A DNA stretch of 36,141 bases from the NCBI GenBank assembly GCA_903869185.1, contig CAIPYC010000087.1:1-36141 (forward strand), given 5' to 3'. The translations under genes were made by a program, and so were the position numbers. Origin of the DNA: an uncultured cyanobacterium. GTDB lineage: Bacteria > Cyanobacteriota > Cyanobacteriia > Cyanobacteriales > Microcystaceae. The notes under the pieces were generated by a model. It was not told the DNA's origin. It saw only the letters and a program-made list of their open reading frames with translations, and made no database searches. Below are positions 6,104-36,141 of this stretch, in pieces; the stretch's first letter is position 1, and every line of letters starts with the position of its first letter.

Positions 6104-7041
6104 TGCCTTTTTGGAAAGAATCAACCGAGGATAAGCAGCGTAAGGAAAAAAACGAAGCTTCCCAGAAGGCTCTTGAGCAGGGCCAAATTCCACCAACTGC
6201 TAAACATAGATTAGCAACACAACAACGAGAAAACCCTGGTTTTTTTACCAGTGATCTGACCATAAACGAGCATCTGCTCACTAGGGAATTGGGCTATCAA
6301 CCCCTCGGTTTGGTGATGGGTAGCACCTTTTATAAAGTCAGCTTTTGGGGCTATTACAACAGTTATTACAGCAGTAGTGGAGAACTTTCTGCTTTAAGTC
6401 AGGCTCAAATGACTGCTCGTTCATTGGCCATAAATCGACTTCAAGAGGAAGCAGCTTTGCTTGGTGCCCATGGCGTAATAGGGATAAGGCTGAAAATTGG
6501 CAACTATGATCCCGGCAGTCGCACGATTGAATTTACGGCAATTGGGACTGCGATCAAAATTCCCCAAAGACCACCAGAGGATGTGCCTTTTACCAGTGCT
6601 TTGAGTGGACAAGAGTTTTGGCAATTGTATCAAGCCGGCTATTATCCAAGGGGCTTGGTTATGGGGACTTGCTCTTACTATATTCATTCCGATTGGAATA
6701 CCACAAGAATTACCGGGGGTGGTCTTTTTGGTATGTTTGCTTTTCAAAATCAAGAATTAACACAATATACCAATGGATTTCAAATGGCTAGACATCTGGC
6801 GATGAGTAGACTTTCTAAAGATATCCAGAAACTTCAGGCCGAGGGCGCTATTGGTACAAATATTGAGATGGGGATTGAAGAGATTGAATATGAAGTTAAT
6901 GAGACGAAGTATCGAGATCTTTTGATTCATTTTTTAGCTTTAGGTACTGCTATTGTCAGTGATCACTCTAGCGTTAGATCTTCTCTAAAAAGTCCCTTGT
7001 TATATCTAGATCTGGCTACTGGAAAGACCAATAAAATCTAA
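6103..7041 (+). CDS. tandem two-domain YbjQ-like (heavy-metal-binding family) protein A
   Basis: A 312-residue protein with a charged linker (1-45) and two copies of a YbjQ-like domain (PF01906 type). Copy 1 spans about 46-160, from FFTSDLTINEHLL through GLVMGSTFY and LGAHGVIGIRL to FTAIGTAIK. Copy 2 spans about 164-290, from PFTSALSGQEFW through GLVMGTCSYY to FLALGTAIV. YbjQ proteins form homo-oligomeric rings of unknown function; the heavy-metal label comes from fold similarity. Cysteine is scarce and no obvious metal site is visible, so metal binding is not supported here. The start overlaps the stop of the preceding gene, and a close paralogue follows after 28 bases. Confidence 0.78.
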   Translation: MPFWKESTEDKQRKEKNEASQKALEQGQIPPTAKHRLATQQRENPGFFTSDLTINEHLLTRELGYQPLGLVMGSTFYKVSFWGYYNSYYSSSGELSALSQAQMTARSLAINRLQEEAALLGAHGVIGIRLKIGNYDPGSRTIEFTAIGTAIKIPQRPPEDVPFTSALSGQEFWQLYQAGYYPRGLVMGTCSYYIHSDWNTTRITGGGLFGMFAFQNQELTQYTNGFQMARHLAMSRLSKDIQKLQAEGAIGTNIEMGIEEIEYEVNETKYRDLLIHFLALGTAIVSDHSSVRSSLKSPLLYLDLATGKTNKI

Positions 7042-31714: not shown

Positions 31715-32413
31715 AGTGGCCATAGTTTTGCTCTCGTCTTGGTAGAGATATTCTACTTTCTTGAAATTGTTCTTATAGCCCATTGCAATCAAGTCTTCTT
31801 TTGTTTCGGGAAAGTCGCTGGAACTAACGTGGCTTTCAACTATCAAGTAATCATCTGAGGTAAATTCAACCCAATCGCGTTTCATGTCATTGAAATAGCG
31901 GCGCAGGAAATCTTGGCGATCTTCATTGTCTCTGCGCACAATATCTATCAAAATGAACTTACCTTGGGGATGCAAAAAGTTAAAAACTTCTCCAATGAAA
32001 TGATCTTTTTGAGCATAAGTAAGATGGTGCAAAGCAAAGGCTATTAAAATACAATCGAAGCTATTATATTGATCTCGGGTCAATTGTTCAGCCAAGGGGT
32101 TAAAATCCGCTTCAACCAAAACAGTTGGACAGCCAAGAGATTTTAGATTCTTGCCAGCGAGTTCTAAGGCTACAGGAGATATATCAATGCCATGATAACT
32201 GGAGATATCCAGATTGGACAGGGCTTTTGTTGTGAACCTGGCATCCCCGCAACCTATTTCAAGGAAGGTGATTGGCGCTTTAAAACTACTCTCTAGAATA
32301 ATGGACAGGGATTGATATATTCCCTGGTGCCCCATATAGTCATAATCTAGAATTTTTTGGTAGACTTGCCATTGCTCTGAGAAAAACTCTTGTGGATACA
32401 TTATTTTGGACAT
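31691..32413 (-). CDS. class I SAM-dependent methyltransferase
   Basis: A 240-residue Rossmann-fold methyltransferase. Motif I is TFLEIGCGDARFT (about 49-61), the acidic ribose contact is GIDISPVALELA, motif II/III is VEADFN, and motif IV is FDCILIAFALHHL. It belongs to the small-molecule/ubiquinone-type group by appearance, but the substrate is not readable. It lies downstream of psbO on the same strand behind a strong terminator, so it is probably transcribed separately. Its 3' end overlaps the glycine-zipper gene by 24 bases. Confidence 0.83.
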   Translation of the reverse strand: MSKIMYPQEFFSEQWQVYQKILDYDYMGHQGIYQSLSIILESSFKAPITFLEIGCGDARFTTKALSNLDISSYHGIDISPVALELAGKNLKSLGCPTVLVEADFNPLAEQLTRDQYNSFDCILIAFALHHLTYAQKDHFIGEVFNFLHPQGKFILIDIVRRDNEDRQDFLRRYFNDMKRDWVEFTSDDYLIVESHVSSSDFPETKEDLIAMGYKNNFKKVEYLYQDESKTMATLSFSRNI

Positions 32414-32432
32414 TGGCTACTCTCTGAGTCAT

Positions 32433-32470
32433 AAAAAAAAGAGAGGAGAATAAATGATCTCCTCTTTTTA
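32433..32470 (-). terminator. intrinsic terminator of psbO
   Basis: AGAGGAGA and TCTCCTCT form an 8-bp stem around an eight-base loop, 17 or more bases after the psbO stop on the minus strand. The stem is followed by a run of eight T on that strand. A weaker T run lies on the other side. Confidence 0.85.
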
Positions 32471-32486
32471 AGCTTGATTCAATCAA

Positions 32487-33320
32487 TTAAGATTCGGCTG
32501 CTACGCGGGCATAGAATACACCACGAACTTTTACATCCAGAGGCTCTTTGGCGCCTAGATCAGTATCGGAGGGCTGTTTTCCTTCAAATACACCAGAGAT
32601 TTCGCCGGTTTCAGCGTCAATCTTGGTGACCTGAAGAGACATATTGCCTTTGCCAAGTCCTGTTCTTTTGGTATTCAACCTCTTGTATTCACTATCATCT
32701 CCACTAGATGGCAAAGCTACAGCAGTATCATATCCAGTATAAAGACCGCGACCTTTGGGATCGAGGAAACCGGCACCACGATAGGAAGGAACCTTATAAT
32801 CTCCAACAAAATCAGTAGAAGTTGTCAAAGCGGTAAAACCAGGCTCAGTTTTGCCAGTAAAGCTTTTTAAAGTAAAGAAGAAGGGTACTTCCTCTCCGCC
32901 AGGTAGCAGAACTGTAATGGGTTGGAAGTCTATGCCGTCTTTTTCTATAAAAGTCAAAACACCGTTGCTATCCAAGGTAATAGAACCTGAAATCTGCTCC
33001 AGGCTGGATGTTTCTCTTGTAAGTACCTTACCTTTTATATATTCCGCGCTCTGTCGCTTATTGGCGGGTTCTTCCTTGACAAAAAACTCTTGTGGTTCTA
33101 AACACAGATCAGAGACAAGATAGGTTTTGTTAGGCTCGAGAGTAACTGAGCCTCTGGTAAAAGATGCTATCTCAGGACATGTGTTAGCCAATCCTGTACC
33201 AACAATCTCATCGTATGTCATGTTTGTTTTATCAATTGCTTCGGCTGGACCATCACTACAAGCAGTGAGAAAGCCCAGACACAATGCCAAAAAGGCCACA
33301 AGCAATGCACGAAATTTCAT
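32487..33320 (-). CDS. psbO: photosystem II manganese-stabilizing protein PsbO
   Basis: Extrinsic 33-kDa protein that shields the Mn4CaO5 cluster of photosystem II on the lumenal side. 277 residues with a signal peptide MKFRALLVAFLALCLGFLTAC; the LTAC at 18-21 looks like a lipobox, as in some cyanobacterial PsbO precursors. MTYDEIVGTGLANTCPEI, the second Cys of the disulfide in SDLCLEPQEFFVKEE, the PFFFTLKSFTG strand region and the GKGNMSLQVTKIDAETGEISGVFE end are all typical. The ATG at 33320 is chosen (GAGG upstream); the frame extends 18 codons further but includes the promoter. Strong promoter and terminator mark it as a single-gene unit. It shows the organism has oxygenic photosynthesis. 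Confidence 0.97.
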   Translation of the reverse strand: MKFRALLVAFLALCLGFLTACSDGPAEAIDKTNMTYDEIVGTGLANTCPEIASFTRGSVTLEPNKTYLVSDLCLEPQEFFVKEEPANKRQSAEYIKGKVLTRETSSLEQISGSITLDSNGVLTFIEKDGIDFQPITVLLPGGEEVPFFFTLKSFTGKTEPGFTALTTSTDFVGDYKVPSYRGAGFLDPKGRGLYTGYDTAVALPSSGDDSEYKRLNTKRTGLGKGNMSLQVTKIDAETGEISGVFEGKQPSDTDLGAKEPLDVKVRGVFYARVAAES

Positions 33321-33345
33321 GTTTAACCTCGTTTTTTCAATTTCT

Positions 33346-33374
33346 AAAATATAAAATCCCAACTCTAGGGTCAA
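33346..33374 (-). promoter_or_regulatory. sigma-70 type promoter of psbO
   Basis: On the minus strand TTGACC (33369-33374), a 17-base spacer and TATTTT (33346-33351). It lies about 25 bases before the ATG, so the leader is short. Confidence 0.65.
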
Positions 33375-33467
33375 GTGTAACTTTGTTTCCTAATCTCTAT
33401 CTATCAAGACTCTTAGTGTATTTTAGGGCAAAATGGCTATCATAGTTCAAGCTCGTTACACGCTAAT

Positions 33468-34307
33468 TCACATCTTATCAACAATTTCTTCAAATCTAGA
33501 TTGCCCATATCTCATGATACTCAATAGATCATCTGACTTATTAGCCGGACGTTCTTTGTTCTCATCCAGGCTCATAGTCAGGGCCGCTTTGTAACCAGCT
33601 TGGGCTACTTGATCTTTGACTGAATCAATATAATCTCCTTCGGGATAAGTAAAATAATCTATAGGTACGCCCAGGTGGCTTTCCAATACCCGTTTTGATT
33701 CGCGCAGTTCATAATCAGCCTTTTGCGGGCTAAGCTTATCGAGTCGCAGATGATTGACCGTATGAGAAGCTACAGTGACCAGTCCGCTCTGGGACATTTC
33801 TTCGACTTGGCTCCAATTGGCTTTTGGCTTACCTTCTCGGCTGCCTACATAGTTGGTATGAATTGACCAAACTGCTGGATAATTATATTTTTTTAGCAAG
33901 GGGAAAGCATAGAGGTATTCACCGAGATAGTTATCATCAAAACTCAAAAGAATTGGCCTAGGCGGCAGAGGCGATCCGCTCTGGAGATGATCAACTAGTT
34001 GCTTTAGGGTAATTGGAGTAATTTTCTTTTGCCGAAGGGTTTGGAATTCCTTTTCCAGATGCTTAGGGGTGATATCCCAATCCACATCTTTAACAGGAAG
34101 AACATCATGGTACATAATTATAGGTATATCCAGCGCTCTGGCTTTAGGATTGATTTGCGGAAAAGGTACCCCAGAATCTACAGGCTTGAGAGGTTGGACA
34201 ACTTTAACAACAGTCTCTTGTTTATGTGTGTTTAAGAATGTGGAGACGACCACGCCTAGCATTATTCCCAATACAACCAAAATCAACCAAGGAAAAGTCC
34301 TGCGCAT
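33468..34307 (-). CDS. polysaccharide deacetylase (NodB-like), membrane-anchored
   Basis: A 279-residue protein with an N-terminal signal anchor (FPWLILVVLGIMLGVVVSTF) and a NodB homology domain facing the periplasm. Motif 1 is LLSFDDNYLGEY with D124/D125 (Asn replaces the usual Gly), and motif 2 is SHTVNH with metal ligands H182 and H186. YFTYPEGDY corresponds to motif 3. The family removes N-acetyl or O-acetyl groups from peptidoglycan or exopolysaccharide using a divalent metal. It is divergent from the PFE-CTERM/HpsJ-like unit, which would suit an envelope theme but proves nothing. Confidence 0.85.
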   Translation of the reverse strand: MRRTFPWLILVVLGIMLGVVVSTFLNTHKQETVVKVVQPLKPVDSGVPFPQINPKARALDIPIIMYHDVLPVKDVDWDITPKHLEKEFQTLRQKKITPITLKQLVDHLQSGSPLPPRPILLSFDDNYLGEYLYAFPLLKKYNYPAVWSIHTNYVGSREGKPKANWSQVEEMSQSGLVTVASHTVNHLRLDKLSPQKADYELRESKRVLESHLGVPIDYFTYPEGDYIDSVKDQVAQAGYKAALTMSLDENKERPANKSDDLLSIMRYGQSRFEEIVDKM

Positions 34308-34381
34308 ATAAAAAAGTTTAATTAAATAGTTGAATTATGTCTCATAAAAAAAATATTAGAATAAGACGACTCAAAAGGTAA

Positions 34382-34461
34382 AGTAGGATTGATTTTCCAA
34401 TGATTAAAAATATACATTTTTTATGTTTTTATGGCTAAATCAAACAACCTATACATAACTT
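34382..34461 (+). repeat. promoter/leader repeat, copy 1 (before PFE-CTERM gene)
   Basis: An 80-base block aligned without gaps to 36062-36141 (offset 1680), with about 59 of 80 positions identical by my count. It contains TTGATT (34389-34394), 16 bases, TATACA (34411-34416), a plausible promoter whose two boxes are kept in copy 2. The highly conserved core is ATTAAAAATAT followed by CATTTTTTAT. Identity falls off sharply upstream. Confidence 0.7.
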
Positions 34462-34475
34462 ATACATGCATGTAT
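34462..34475. promoter_or_regulatory. 14-bp perfect palindrome in the PFE-CTERM leader
   Basis: ATACATGCATGTAT, directly after the repeated block and 55 bases before the ATG. It is a candidate operator or start of a leader hairpin. The second copy would lie just beyond the window edge, so conservation cannot be tested here. Confidence 0.45.
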
Positions 34476-34530
34476 TAAAACAATCTGTTATGGTGTGTTC
34501 ATTAATCTCTGTGATAAGGATATTTTATCT

Positions 34531-35199
34531 ATGAAATTCGACAAAATTGCTGCTTCTGCATTTTTAGTTGCTTGCGGTAGTCTTCTAAATTCCGGGTCAG
34601 CTCATGCATTAGCTTATACATTGGGAACCCCATACGCTCTAAACGATAGTGCTTGGACAAGTGGAGCAACAATCACTAATGGTACTGATCTAATAACTTT
34701 TACGTTGCAAAGTTACACCGGCCTGCACGCTAACGACACTGTTGATATAAGCTGGGATGGAACATTCTATAACCTCAACATTGATCATGGCCCAAATAAT
34801 TCCGTAACAACAACTACTCCTGGTAGTGGTACTTTCACTTGGAACATTACTGCTAACAAGGAATTTAATACTGCAAAAGCGAATGCGCTCTACAATCTTT
34901 CTACCGTTGGTACTACAGTATTGCATTCGGTTTATAGTCCCGGTGGTCCCATTCTAGACATCCTAGCTAATGGTGCTAATGACGGGCCTACGCCTTTTGC
35001 CGCTGGAGTCACATCCACAACTCTTGTTTCAACTGTCAATGATCCTGGTACTTTTGTAAAACAGATTAACAATGGCGTCTCATTAAAAAACGTACCTTTT
35101 GAATTCTCCCCTGAACAGGGATTCATGTTGGGTGTGCCTTTATTCCTCGGATTGAGACAACTCAAAAAAAGAACTGCTGCCAAAAAACAAATTAGCTAA
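34531..35199 (+). CDS. PFE-CTERM sorting-signal surface protein
   Basis: A 222-residue exported protein with a signal peptide (cleavage likely after SAHA, residue 25; an LVAC at 12-15 makes a lipoprotein signal a weaker alternative). The middle is Ser/Thr/Asn/Gly-rich and beta-like (TNGTDLITFTLQSYTG, VDISWDGTFYNL). The end is the cyanobacterial PFE-CTERM variant of PEP-CTERM signals: VPFEFSPEQGFMLGVPLFLG with PFE at 189-191, a short hydrophobic helix and basic RQLKKRTAAKK. Such tails are thought to be handled by exosortase-like systems. The start is the ATG at 34531 with AAGGA ten bases upstream, not the GTG 12 codons earlier. An HpsJ-like gene follows. Confidence 0.78.
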   Translation: MKFDKIAASAFLVACGSLLNSGSAHALAYTLGTPYALNDSAWTSGATITNGTDLITFTLQSYTGLHANDTVDISWDGTFYNLNIDHGPNNSVTTTTPGSGTFTWNITANKEFNTAKANALYNLSTVGTTVLHSVYSPGGPILDILANGANDGPTPFAAGVTSTTLVSTVNDPGTFVKQINNGVSLKNVPFEFSPEQGFMLGVPLFLGLRQLKKRTAAKKQIS

Positions 35200-35226
35200 T
35201 AGTCAATCGATCCCTTAAAACTTCCA

Positions 35227-35258
35227 AGACTCAGATATCCACAAGGATATTTGGGTCT
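35227..35258 (+). promoter_or_regulatory. 14-bp-stem hairpin between the PFE-CTERM and HpsJ-like genes
   Basis: AGACTCAGATATCC, loop ACAA, GGATATTTGGGTCT: fourteen consecutive pairs, two of them G-T. It lies 27 bases after one stop and 29 bases before the next ATG. No T run follows, so it may set unequal expression by partial termination or RNA protection. Confidence 0.7.
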
Positions 35259-35287
35259 GTGATTTCTAGAAAAGCACTACGTAAAAC

Positions 35288-36031
35288 ATGAAAACAAATA
35301 AATCCTTCTCCTTTGAAGCCACCGAAGATACCCAGGTAAGAACATTGCAAGTATTGAGGACAATCGGTTGCTTTATATTTGTATTTACCTTATTGGATTA
35401 TCTCGACATAATCATACCATTGCAATTATTCAATCCGGTCTGGGAGTTTTCTAAAATTGGGCAGCTCGTTGAACAGGTGTGGGCTCCTCTGTTTGGGTTC
35501 TTTTTGGTGTTTTTTTATTTAAAAGAACATGAAGTGAGCTTTGAACAAGCCAGATTGCTTAATTTCTTTTCCTATATAGCTTTGCTACTTTCTATATTTT
35601 ATTTTGCCCTCTTTCCCCTAGTTCTTGCAGATACTTATAAACTAAATACCCAGCTCAGCTCTACCAATAAGGTACAGGTTGCCCAGTTTGATACTGGTTT
35701 GGAGAATGTCAGAAAGTTGATAGCCAGCGCAACCACGCCAGAGCAACTAGCTTCCTTATCCAAAAGAGCCAGTCTAGGGGATGAAGATATATTAGGCAGT
35801 CACAATACTTTCGAACATATGAAAGTTGAGATATCTCAAAAGCTGGAAAACGATCAAATCAAGTATCATAAAGCCAATGCCAGTGAACATAGAACGCAGA
35901 TGCTTGGATTTTTTAAAAAAGCTACTAAATATATATTGGGCACATTACTAAGTGCAGCCTGCATGTTCATGATCTTCCAAATGACCAGATGGTCTAGAGT
36001 GATCTATAAAGAATATAAAGAAAATAATTGA
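35288..36031 (+). CDS. HpsJ-like membrane protein
   Basis: A 247-residue membrane protein with spans near 24-46, 64-84, 95-117 and 213-233. A long polar loop (about 120-205) rich in charged helix lies between spans 3 and 4 (STNKVQVAQFDTGLENVRKL, then LGSHNTFEHMKVEISQKLEN). The layout and the start of the first spans match my memory of HpsJ-family proteins, first named in hormogonium polysaccharide loci and often found beside cyanobacterial sorting-signal systems. The specific function is unknown. Its gene follows the PFE-CTERM gene by 88 bases across a strong hairpin. The promoter repeat recurs 31 bases after its stop. Confidence 0.68.
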   Translation: MKTNKSFSFEATEDTQVRTLQVLRTIGCFIFVFTLLDYLDIIIPLQLFNPVWEFSKIGQLVEQVWAPLFGFFLVFFYLKEHEVSFEQARLLNFFSYIALLLSIFYFALFPLVLADTYKLNTQLSSTNKVQVAQFDTGLENVRKLIASATTPEQLASLSKRASLGDEDILGSHNTFEHMKVEISQKLENDQIKYHKANASEHRTQMLGFFKKATKYILGTLLSAACMFMIFQMTRWSRVIYKEYKENN

Positions 36032-36061
36032 TCTTTTGTCTTCATTGGGCAAATCCAGAGC

Positions 36062-36141
36062 AGTATACTTGACTTTCTCATAATTAAAAATATGCAATTT
36101 TTATAATTTTCTGGTTTAATCAAGCAATTTATACTTGCCTG
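36062..36141 (+). repeat. promoter/leader repeat, copy 2 (runs off the window)
   Basis: Ungapped match to 34382-34461. The promoter-like boxes are kept: TTGACT (36069-36074), 16 bases, TATGCA (36091-36096). The match is still good at the last base, so the repeat probably continues and leads into another gene of the same kind. Confidence 0.65.

Follow-up and report, generated by a model that had tools for sequence, protein, structure and literature searches.

Tandem units of a PFE-CTERM-like substrate and a candidate HpsJ-like partner in a lake cyanobacterium, with a substrate passenger probably exchanged between species

At the right end of the window, that is, the whole stretch of 36,141 nucleotides analysed here, and across the contig break that follows it, we found what appears to be a two-gene cassette, coding for a surface protein and its presumed membrane partner, in two tandem units that end at rimM. 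The passenger of the first substrate (P1) shows far lower synonymous divergence from its counterpart in a congener than the sorting tail of the same gene, and we consider it fairly probable that the units are substrate-partner cassettes of cyanoexosortase A whose passengers have crossed between species, with recombination at the conserved ends. The mosaic and the exchange are absent from the original prediction, because other genomes were needed to see them.

Family names and gene order suggest how such a cassette would work. The substrate would be exported through its signal peptide by the general pathway. Its sorting tail would then keep it in the inner membrane until cyanoexosortase A, whose gene lies elsewhere in the genome, processes it, presumably with help from the HpsJ-like inner-membrane protein of the same cassette. 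Homologous recombination between conserved ends, the simplest mechanism, would put a passenger from a foreign lineage onto native export parts, and phages, grazers or surface chemistry could supply the selection.

Organization of the array

The window corresponds to contig C87 in a cyanobacterial assembly of 2.76 Mb (G000); we compared it with a congener (G002) and a third genome of the genus (G001). Its last 141 bases are exactly the first 141 bases of contig C37, the sole contig among the matches listed, where a second PFE-CTERM-like gene (P2, starting at joined position 36200), a second HpsJ-like gene and rimM follow (Table 1). The original prediction had expected a second PFE-CTERM gene about 115 bases past the second -10-like box of a repeated leader; reading onward past the window edge, a sorting-tail gene of this kind does follow the second leader, 103 bases past that box, and the second HpsJ-like gene comes after it. 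The join of C87 and C37 is supported by the same order before rimM in G002, where contig CAISPN010000047.1 (uncultured cyanobacterium isolate Umea_bin-05048) carries substrate, HpsJ remnant, substrate, HpsJ and rimM. The remnant in the first unit of G002 (L089, about 6720-6960, minus strand) keeps both ends and has its middle deleted. To the left of the array synteny with G002 is lost; there, the deacetylase gene adjoins a putative phosphohexomutase (our own reading), with no sorting-tail gene between them. G001 gave no match to the sorting tail and a weak HpsJ match of 54 bits. On C37, a secreted-looking protein rich in KPKPKA-type repeats is encoded at L009 4050-4823.

Table 1. Coordinates of the array features in the window and on contig C37 (L009)
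Feature	Position	Strand	Remarks
Leader copy 1	34382..34461	+	box-like hexamers at 34389-34394 and 34411-34416; 59/80 identical to copy 2
Substrate gene 1 (P1)	34531..35199	+	ORF, 222 aa, PFE-CTERM-like surface protein
Signal-peptide-like start of P1, aa 1-26	34531..34608	+	basic-hydrophobic start common to four array substrates (alignment)
Variable passenger of P1, aa 27-187	34609..35091	+	dS 0.17 to the second array substrate of G002
Sorting tail of P1, aa 188-222	35092..35196	+	VPFEF, hydrophobic stretch, basic end
Terminator-like hairpin between substrate and HpsJ	35227..35258	+	14-pair stem
HpsJ-like gene 1	35288..36031	+	247 aa, predicted helical membrane protein; HpsJ_like_A 177.7 bits
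Leader copy 2	36062..36141	+	cut by window edge; unit goes on in C37
Substrate gene 2 (P2)	C37 200-787		195 aa; same sorting tail as P1
HpsJ-like gene 2	C37 877-1632
rimM	C37, from 1775

Substrate proteins and their sorting tails

For P1, the ATG at 34531 is the more likely start than the GTG at 34495 of the ORF list, since it is the one aligned with the starts of its relatives. Both substrates have the C-terminal layout of PFE_CTERM (NCBIfam NF050011), namely a PFE motif, then a hydrophobic stretch and, at the very end, basic residues, and both end in VPFEFSPEQGFMLGVPLFLGLRQLKKRTAAKKQIS; the tail DNA of P1 is 95% identical to that of the second unit. Their scores of 10.6 (P1) and 11.3 bits lie under the 24-bit cut-off of this family, and we therefore name them PFE-CTERM-like. 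With Pfam, neither the substrates nor HpsJ had a match that exceeded the gathering score, a PDB sequence search with the substrate gave nothing below 0.18, and the AlphaFold model of the substrate had a mean pLDDT of 31.5. Among 388 genomes of the order, the P1 query had matches in two, G000 and G002, and the P2 query in the same two; P1 had no match among phage and plasmid records.

PFD-type substrates (L017 3046-3780 and 1818-2501, and L056 221-1012; L128, L130 and L135 in G002) were seen to extend past the sorting tail into a second tail, which is hydrophobic and basic and ends like LLAMGAAGVLKWRADRDKDAA in G000 and LLGMGAAGVRKWREQKDKDAA in G002. At L017 1818-2501 the second tail alone is retained. 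An NCBIfam scan of two of these proteins gave no match.

HpsJ-like genes and exosortase context

Both HpsJ-like proteins, at 177.7 and 183.2 bits, pass the cut-off of 140 for HpsJ_like_A (NCBIfam NF050013), a family described as "cyanoexosortase A-associated". The proposal of a unit made of a sorting-signal substrate and a partner is reasonable on this ground, and the putative partner role itself is suggested by family names and gene order. The AlphaFold model of HpsJ is all helical at low confidence (mean pLDDT 59), and the best hit of its profile in a PDB sequence search was ATP synthase subunit b (0.0011), others being weaker. A hairpin formed at the equivalent place in each of the four folded spacers between substrate and HpsJ (z -2.4 to -5.4); it is possibly an attenuator, which could hold the level of the partner low.

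CrtA is encoded on contig C196 of G000 (252 bits), with none beside the array, and a third HpsJ_like_A of this genome lies on C171 beside a CrtA-like fusion protein. The 536-aa ORF at L018 3613-5223, next to HpsJ_like_A, fuses a CrtA-like exosortase with a cyanosortA_assc domain, and a similar fusion is present in G002 (L088). The array shares features with the cyanoexosortase A clusters (CrtA, cyanosortA_assc and HpsJ_like_A; TIGR03763, TIGR04153 and NF050013), in that its HpsJ proteins score above the family cut-off and CrtA is present in the genome. It differs from them because HpsJ is paired with a substrate, in tandem, with no exosortase nearby, whereas elsewhere CrtA is in the locus for 51 of the 67 HpsJ_A genes sampled outside the genus. 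These genes come from a non-random survey of 72 loci, 66 of them outside the genus, picked among the matches listed for high score or multi-copy genomes; HpsJ_A matches at E 1e-40 or better are found in 152 of 291 genomes of the order.

The pairing of substrate and HpsJ is not general, given that only 7 of the 67 HpsJ_A genes outside the genus have a sorting-tail gene as their immediate upstream neighbour on the same strand, as compared to 11 of 449 other genes at the same loci. Among the HpsJ_A genes outside the genus with no CrtA nearby, the share was 2 of 16. The three HpsJ copies from the arrays grouped as one clade (100/99) in a 36-row tree, inside a group of copies from the genus. Seven HpsJ_A matches were found in G002: one beside the CrtA fusion (C99), one on C79 at 75 bits, and five distant from an exosortase. 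Three of these five have a sorting tail directly upstream, namely those on C47 (the array), C74, where the upstream gene is a frameshifted PFD-type gene, and C112, where the tail was placed by position and a stop lies inside the match; the other two (C121 and C119) have none directly upstream.

Probable exchange of the P1 passenger between species

P1 and the second substrate of G002 are 70% identical as proteins, and their passenger DNA is 81% identical. Over aa 1-187 the comparison gave dS 0.185 with a third-position identity of 0.865, while 14 control genes of the window compared with the same genome gave dS 0.65-2.69 and third-position identities of 0.46-0.68, and eight genes at the rimM and C171 locus gave dS 0.89-1.86. 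Within the same gene, the tail (aa 188-222) has dS 1.1 to G002, and the HpsJ that follows has 1.59. A change-point search over P1 and HpsJ placed the low-dS block at aa 18-188, ending one residue before PFEF, and none of 300 permutations was as strong; the exchange border in P1 thus appears to lie at the sorting motif. The same codon is used at 93 of the 105 identical residues of the passenger, with 0.38 expected, which excludes codon bias as the cause; the tail has 18 of 29, and the share in rimM, HpsJ, the CrtA fusion, typA and ppa is 53-66%.

In most passenger segments dN roughly matches or exceeds dS, in keeping with relaxed or diversifying selection. These values, the plain duplication of the units and a probable distant homology of the P1 and P2 passengers would agree with a history of tandem duplication in which the exposed domain then diverged fast, owing to relaxed or positive selection and not to any interspecies exchange. 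We rate this explanation as unlikely, since selection on the protein cannot bring dS down to 0.19 while 22 other genes have 0.65-2.69, and the low-dS block stops at the sorting motif. The homology in question was seen with longer passenger queries, which matched P1 to P2 at 35-36% over about 110-120 residues (E about 1e-6 to 1e-7), so that the two passengers are likely homologous over part of their length. Their C-terminal parts are related; for their N-terminal parts homology was not detected, as 780 of 2000 shuffles aligned as well. We accordingly describe the passengers as different, rather than proven unrelated.

Constant parts within each genome

The two units of G000 are 69.6% identical over 224 bp of leader and signal region and 86.5% identical over 1084 bp from the passenger end through tail, spacer and HpsJ. 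In G002, tail, spacer and the start of HpsJ are 97.4% identical between units over 312 bp, and the passengers differ. The two HpsJ genes of G000 differ from each other by dS 0.24 and from that of G002 by 1.57-1.59; likewise, the tails have dS 0.19-0.21 within a genome and 1.2 between species. The constant parts appear to have been homogenised within each genome or separately duplicated in each. Separate recent duplications, which could give this within-genome likeness, count against the cassette reading, as do the scores of both substrates under the PFE_CTERM cut-off.

A second probable exchange and the remaining substrates

A second case concerns the PFD-type gene next to CrtA (C196 of G000, L017 3046-3780) and a gene on C45 of G002. 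The latter adjoins a putative tldD-like gene (our own reading), so this pair is not syntenic. Its dS is 0.96 over aa 1-30, 0.15-0.31 over aa 31-177 and 0.79-3.15 in the tail, and the low-dS block covers aa 49-183 and stops five residues past the start of the tail; again, 0 of 300 permutations were as strong. The tails in the two cases are short, with 29 and 51 informative residues, and the assemblies of both genomes derive from mixed samples.

Chimeric assembly or a binning error, by which the passenger of one organism was joined to the tail of another, has to be weighed. Both genomes are fragmented, and the array itself is interrupted by the assembly break at the window end. Over at least 46 bases immediately ahead of the border between passenger and tail, P1 is identical to its G002 counterpart, a stretch that could aid recombination but also the formation of a chimera. 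However, the passenger DNA is 81% identical between the genomes, so neither is the sequence of the other, the G002 gene sits inside a 75.7 kb contig, and a second gene shows the same layout at unrelated places. An artefact of this kind is, in our judgement, quite improbable.

We compared nine other substrates of G000 with G002. For those on C203, C76, C78 and C68 the bodies are saturated or nearly so; those on C38 and C54 could be aligned over 53 and 64 aa only, with dS of 0.59 and 0.46, under the lowest control. C196b gave a 30% whole-protein match only, and this comparison yielded no match for the substrate on C192 or for the P2 body. Exchange is thus well supported by these sequence comparisons for two genes, rather than for all. 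It is possible, although we would put it short of an even chance, that the genus has a constant/variable system in which signal peptide, tail and HpsJ are native and homogenised in each genome, while species pass mature passengers to one another through recombination at conserved ends. The force behind this modular exchange of surface proteins may perhaps be surface-recognising phages or grazers.

Relation to known systems

Exosortase substrates have unrelated bodies on common tails. In the study of PEP-CTERM/EpsH (Haft 2006, PMC1569441), tails are more alike within than between species and bodies are fast-evolving, a pattern explained there by paralogous expansion, duplication and loss; a sigma-54-type motif upstream of PEP-CTERM genes is given for proteobacteria only. 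The array resembles the system in its C-terminal motif, hydrophobic stretch, basic end and duplication-driven expansion, and it differs in that two bodies here have lower interspecies synonymous divergence than their own tails. In Nostoc punctiforme, the exosortase CrtB is required for normal extracellular amounts of PEP-CTERM protein and is tied to polysaccharide, motility and biofilm (PMC12188702); the exosortase there is CrtB, not CrtA, and HpsJ, CrtA and a tandem arrangement are absent from the main text. Our searches of the openly licensed literature gave no report of passenger exchange, and no mention of "PFE-CTERM" or of "PEP-CTERM" together with "gene conversion". Among the papers listed that contain HpsJ, the titles pointed to unrelated subjects, and in one that also mentions hormogonium polysaccharide hpsJ appears as an item of a table.

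Both genes suggest that it is the body that moves, with exchange borders at or near the export modules. If seen in more genomes, this would explain the diversification of surface proteins that are exosortase substrates. The array also isolates one substrate and one HpsJ-like partner from the exosortase, which makes the role of HpsJ-like proteins open to testing.

The leader repeat

BLAST with a leader query of 119 bases returned the query itself and otherwise matches of E at least 0.29; it missed the second copy and was thus too insensitive, and the upstream regions were therefore compared directly. The best ungapped pairing of 80-mers joined 34382-34461 with 36062-36141 at 59 of 80 identical, the value first described, and 0 of 1000 dinucleotide shuffles reached it (mean 38.7, maximum 46); 157 AT-rich pieces of the same genome had at most 45 identical against the second upstream region. 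The leader repeat is confirmed as real. The second copy begins after a gap of 30 bases from the end of the first HpsJ gene (36031). Both copies keep TTGA(T/C)T, 16 bases and TAT(A/G)CA, as stated before, with TTGATT-16-TATACA at 34389 and TTGACT-16-TATGCA at 36069, and no further TTGAYT-N16-TATRCA occurs on either strand of the joined window and C37. Rfam gave 0 matches within 32000-36141.

The original prediction further took the leader for a functional promoter, copied so as to co-regulate a family of surface proteins. Duplication beyond chance and the preserved sigma-70-like box pair speak for it, but the boxes are conserved no better than the rest of the leader (10/12 as compared to 49/68, Fisher p 0.50) and the pair is not among the predictions of a consensus promoter scan, so the promoter identity stays a guess. 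The family claim found no support in the wider comparison: the leader has no counterpart upstream of nine other sorting-tail genes in the genome, where the best 60-mers reach only 28-32 (47 between the two copies), and it is not recognisable in the two array leaders of G002 (31-35). We give this reading a very slim chance; the leader, which may still drive the two array units, appears to have moved as a piece of the duplicated leader-substrate-HpsJ unit rather than as a family promoter. Elsewhere, two sorting-tail genes on different contigs (L021 5901-6944 and L023 5863-6474) have an upstream stretch with 55 of 60 identical bases and different bodies, another case of common ends with differing passengers.
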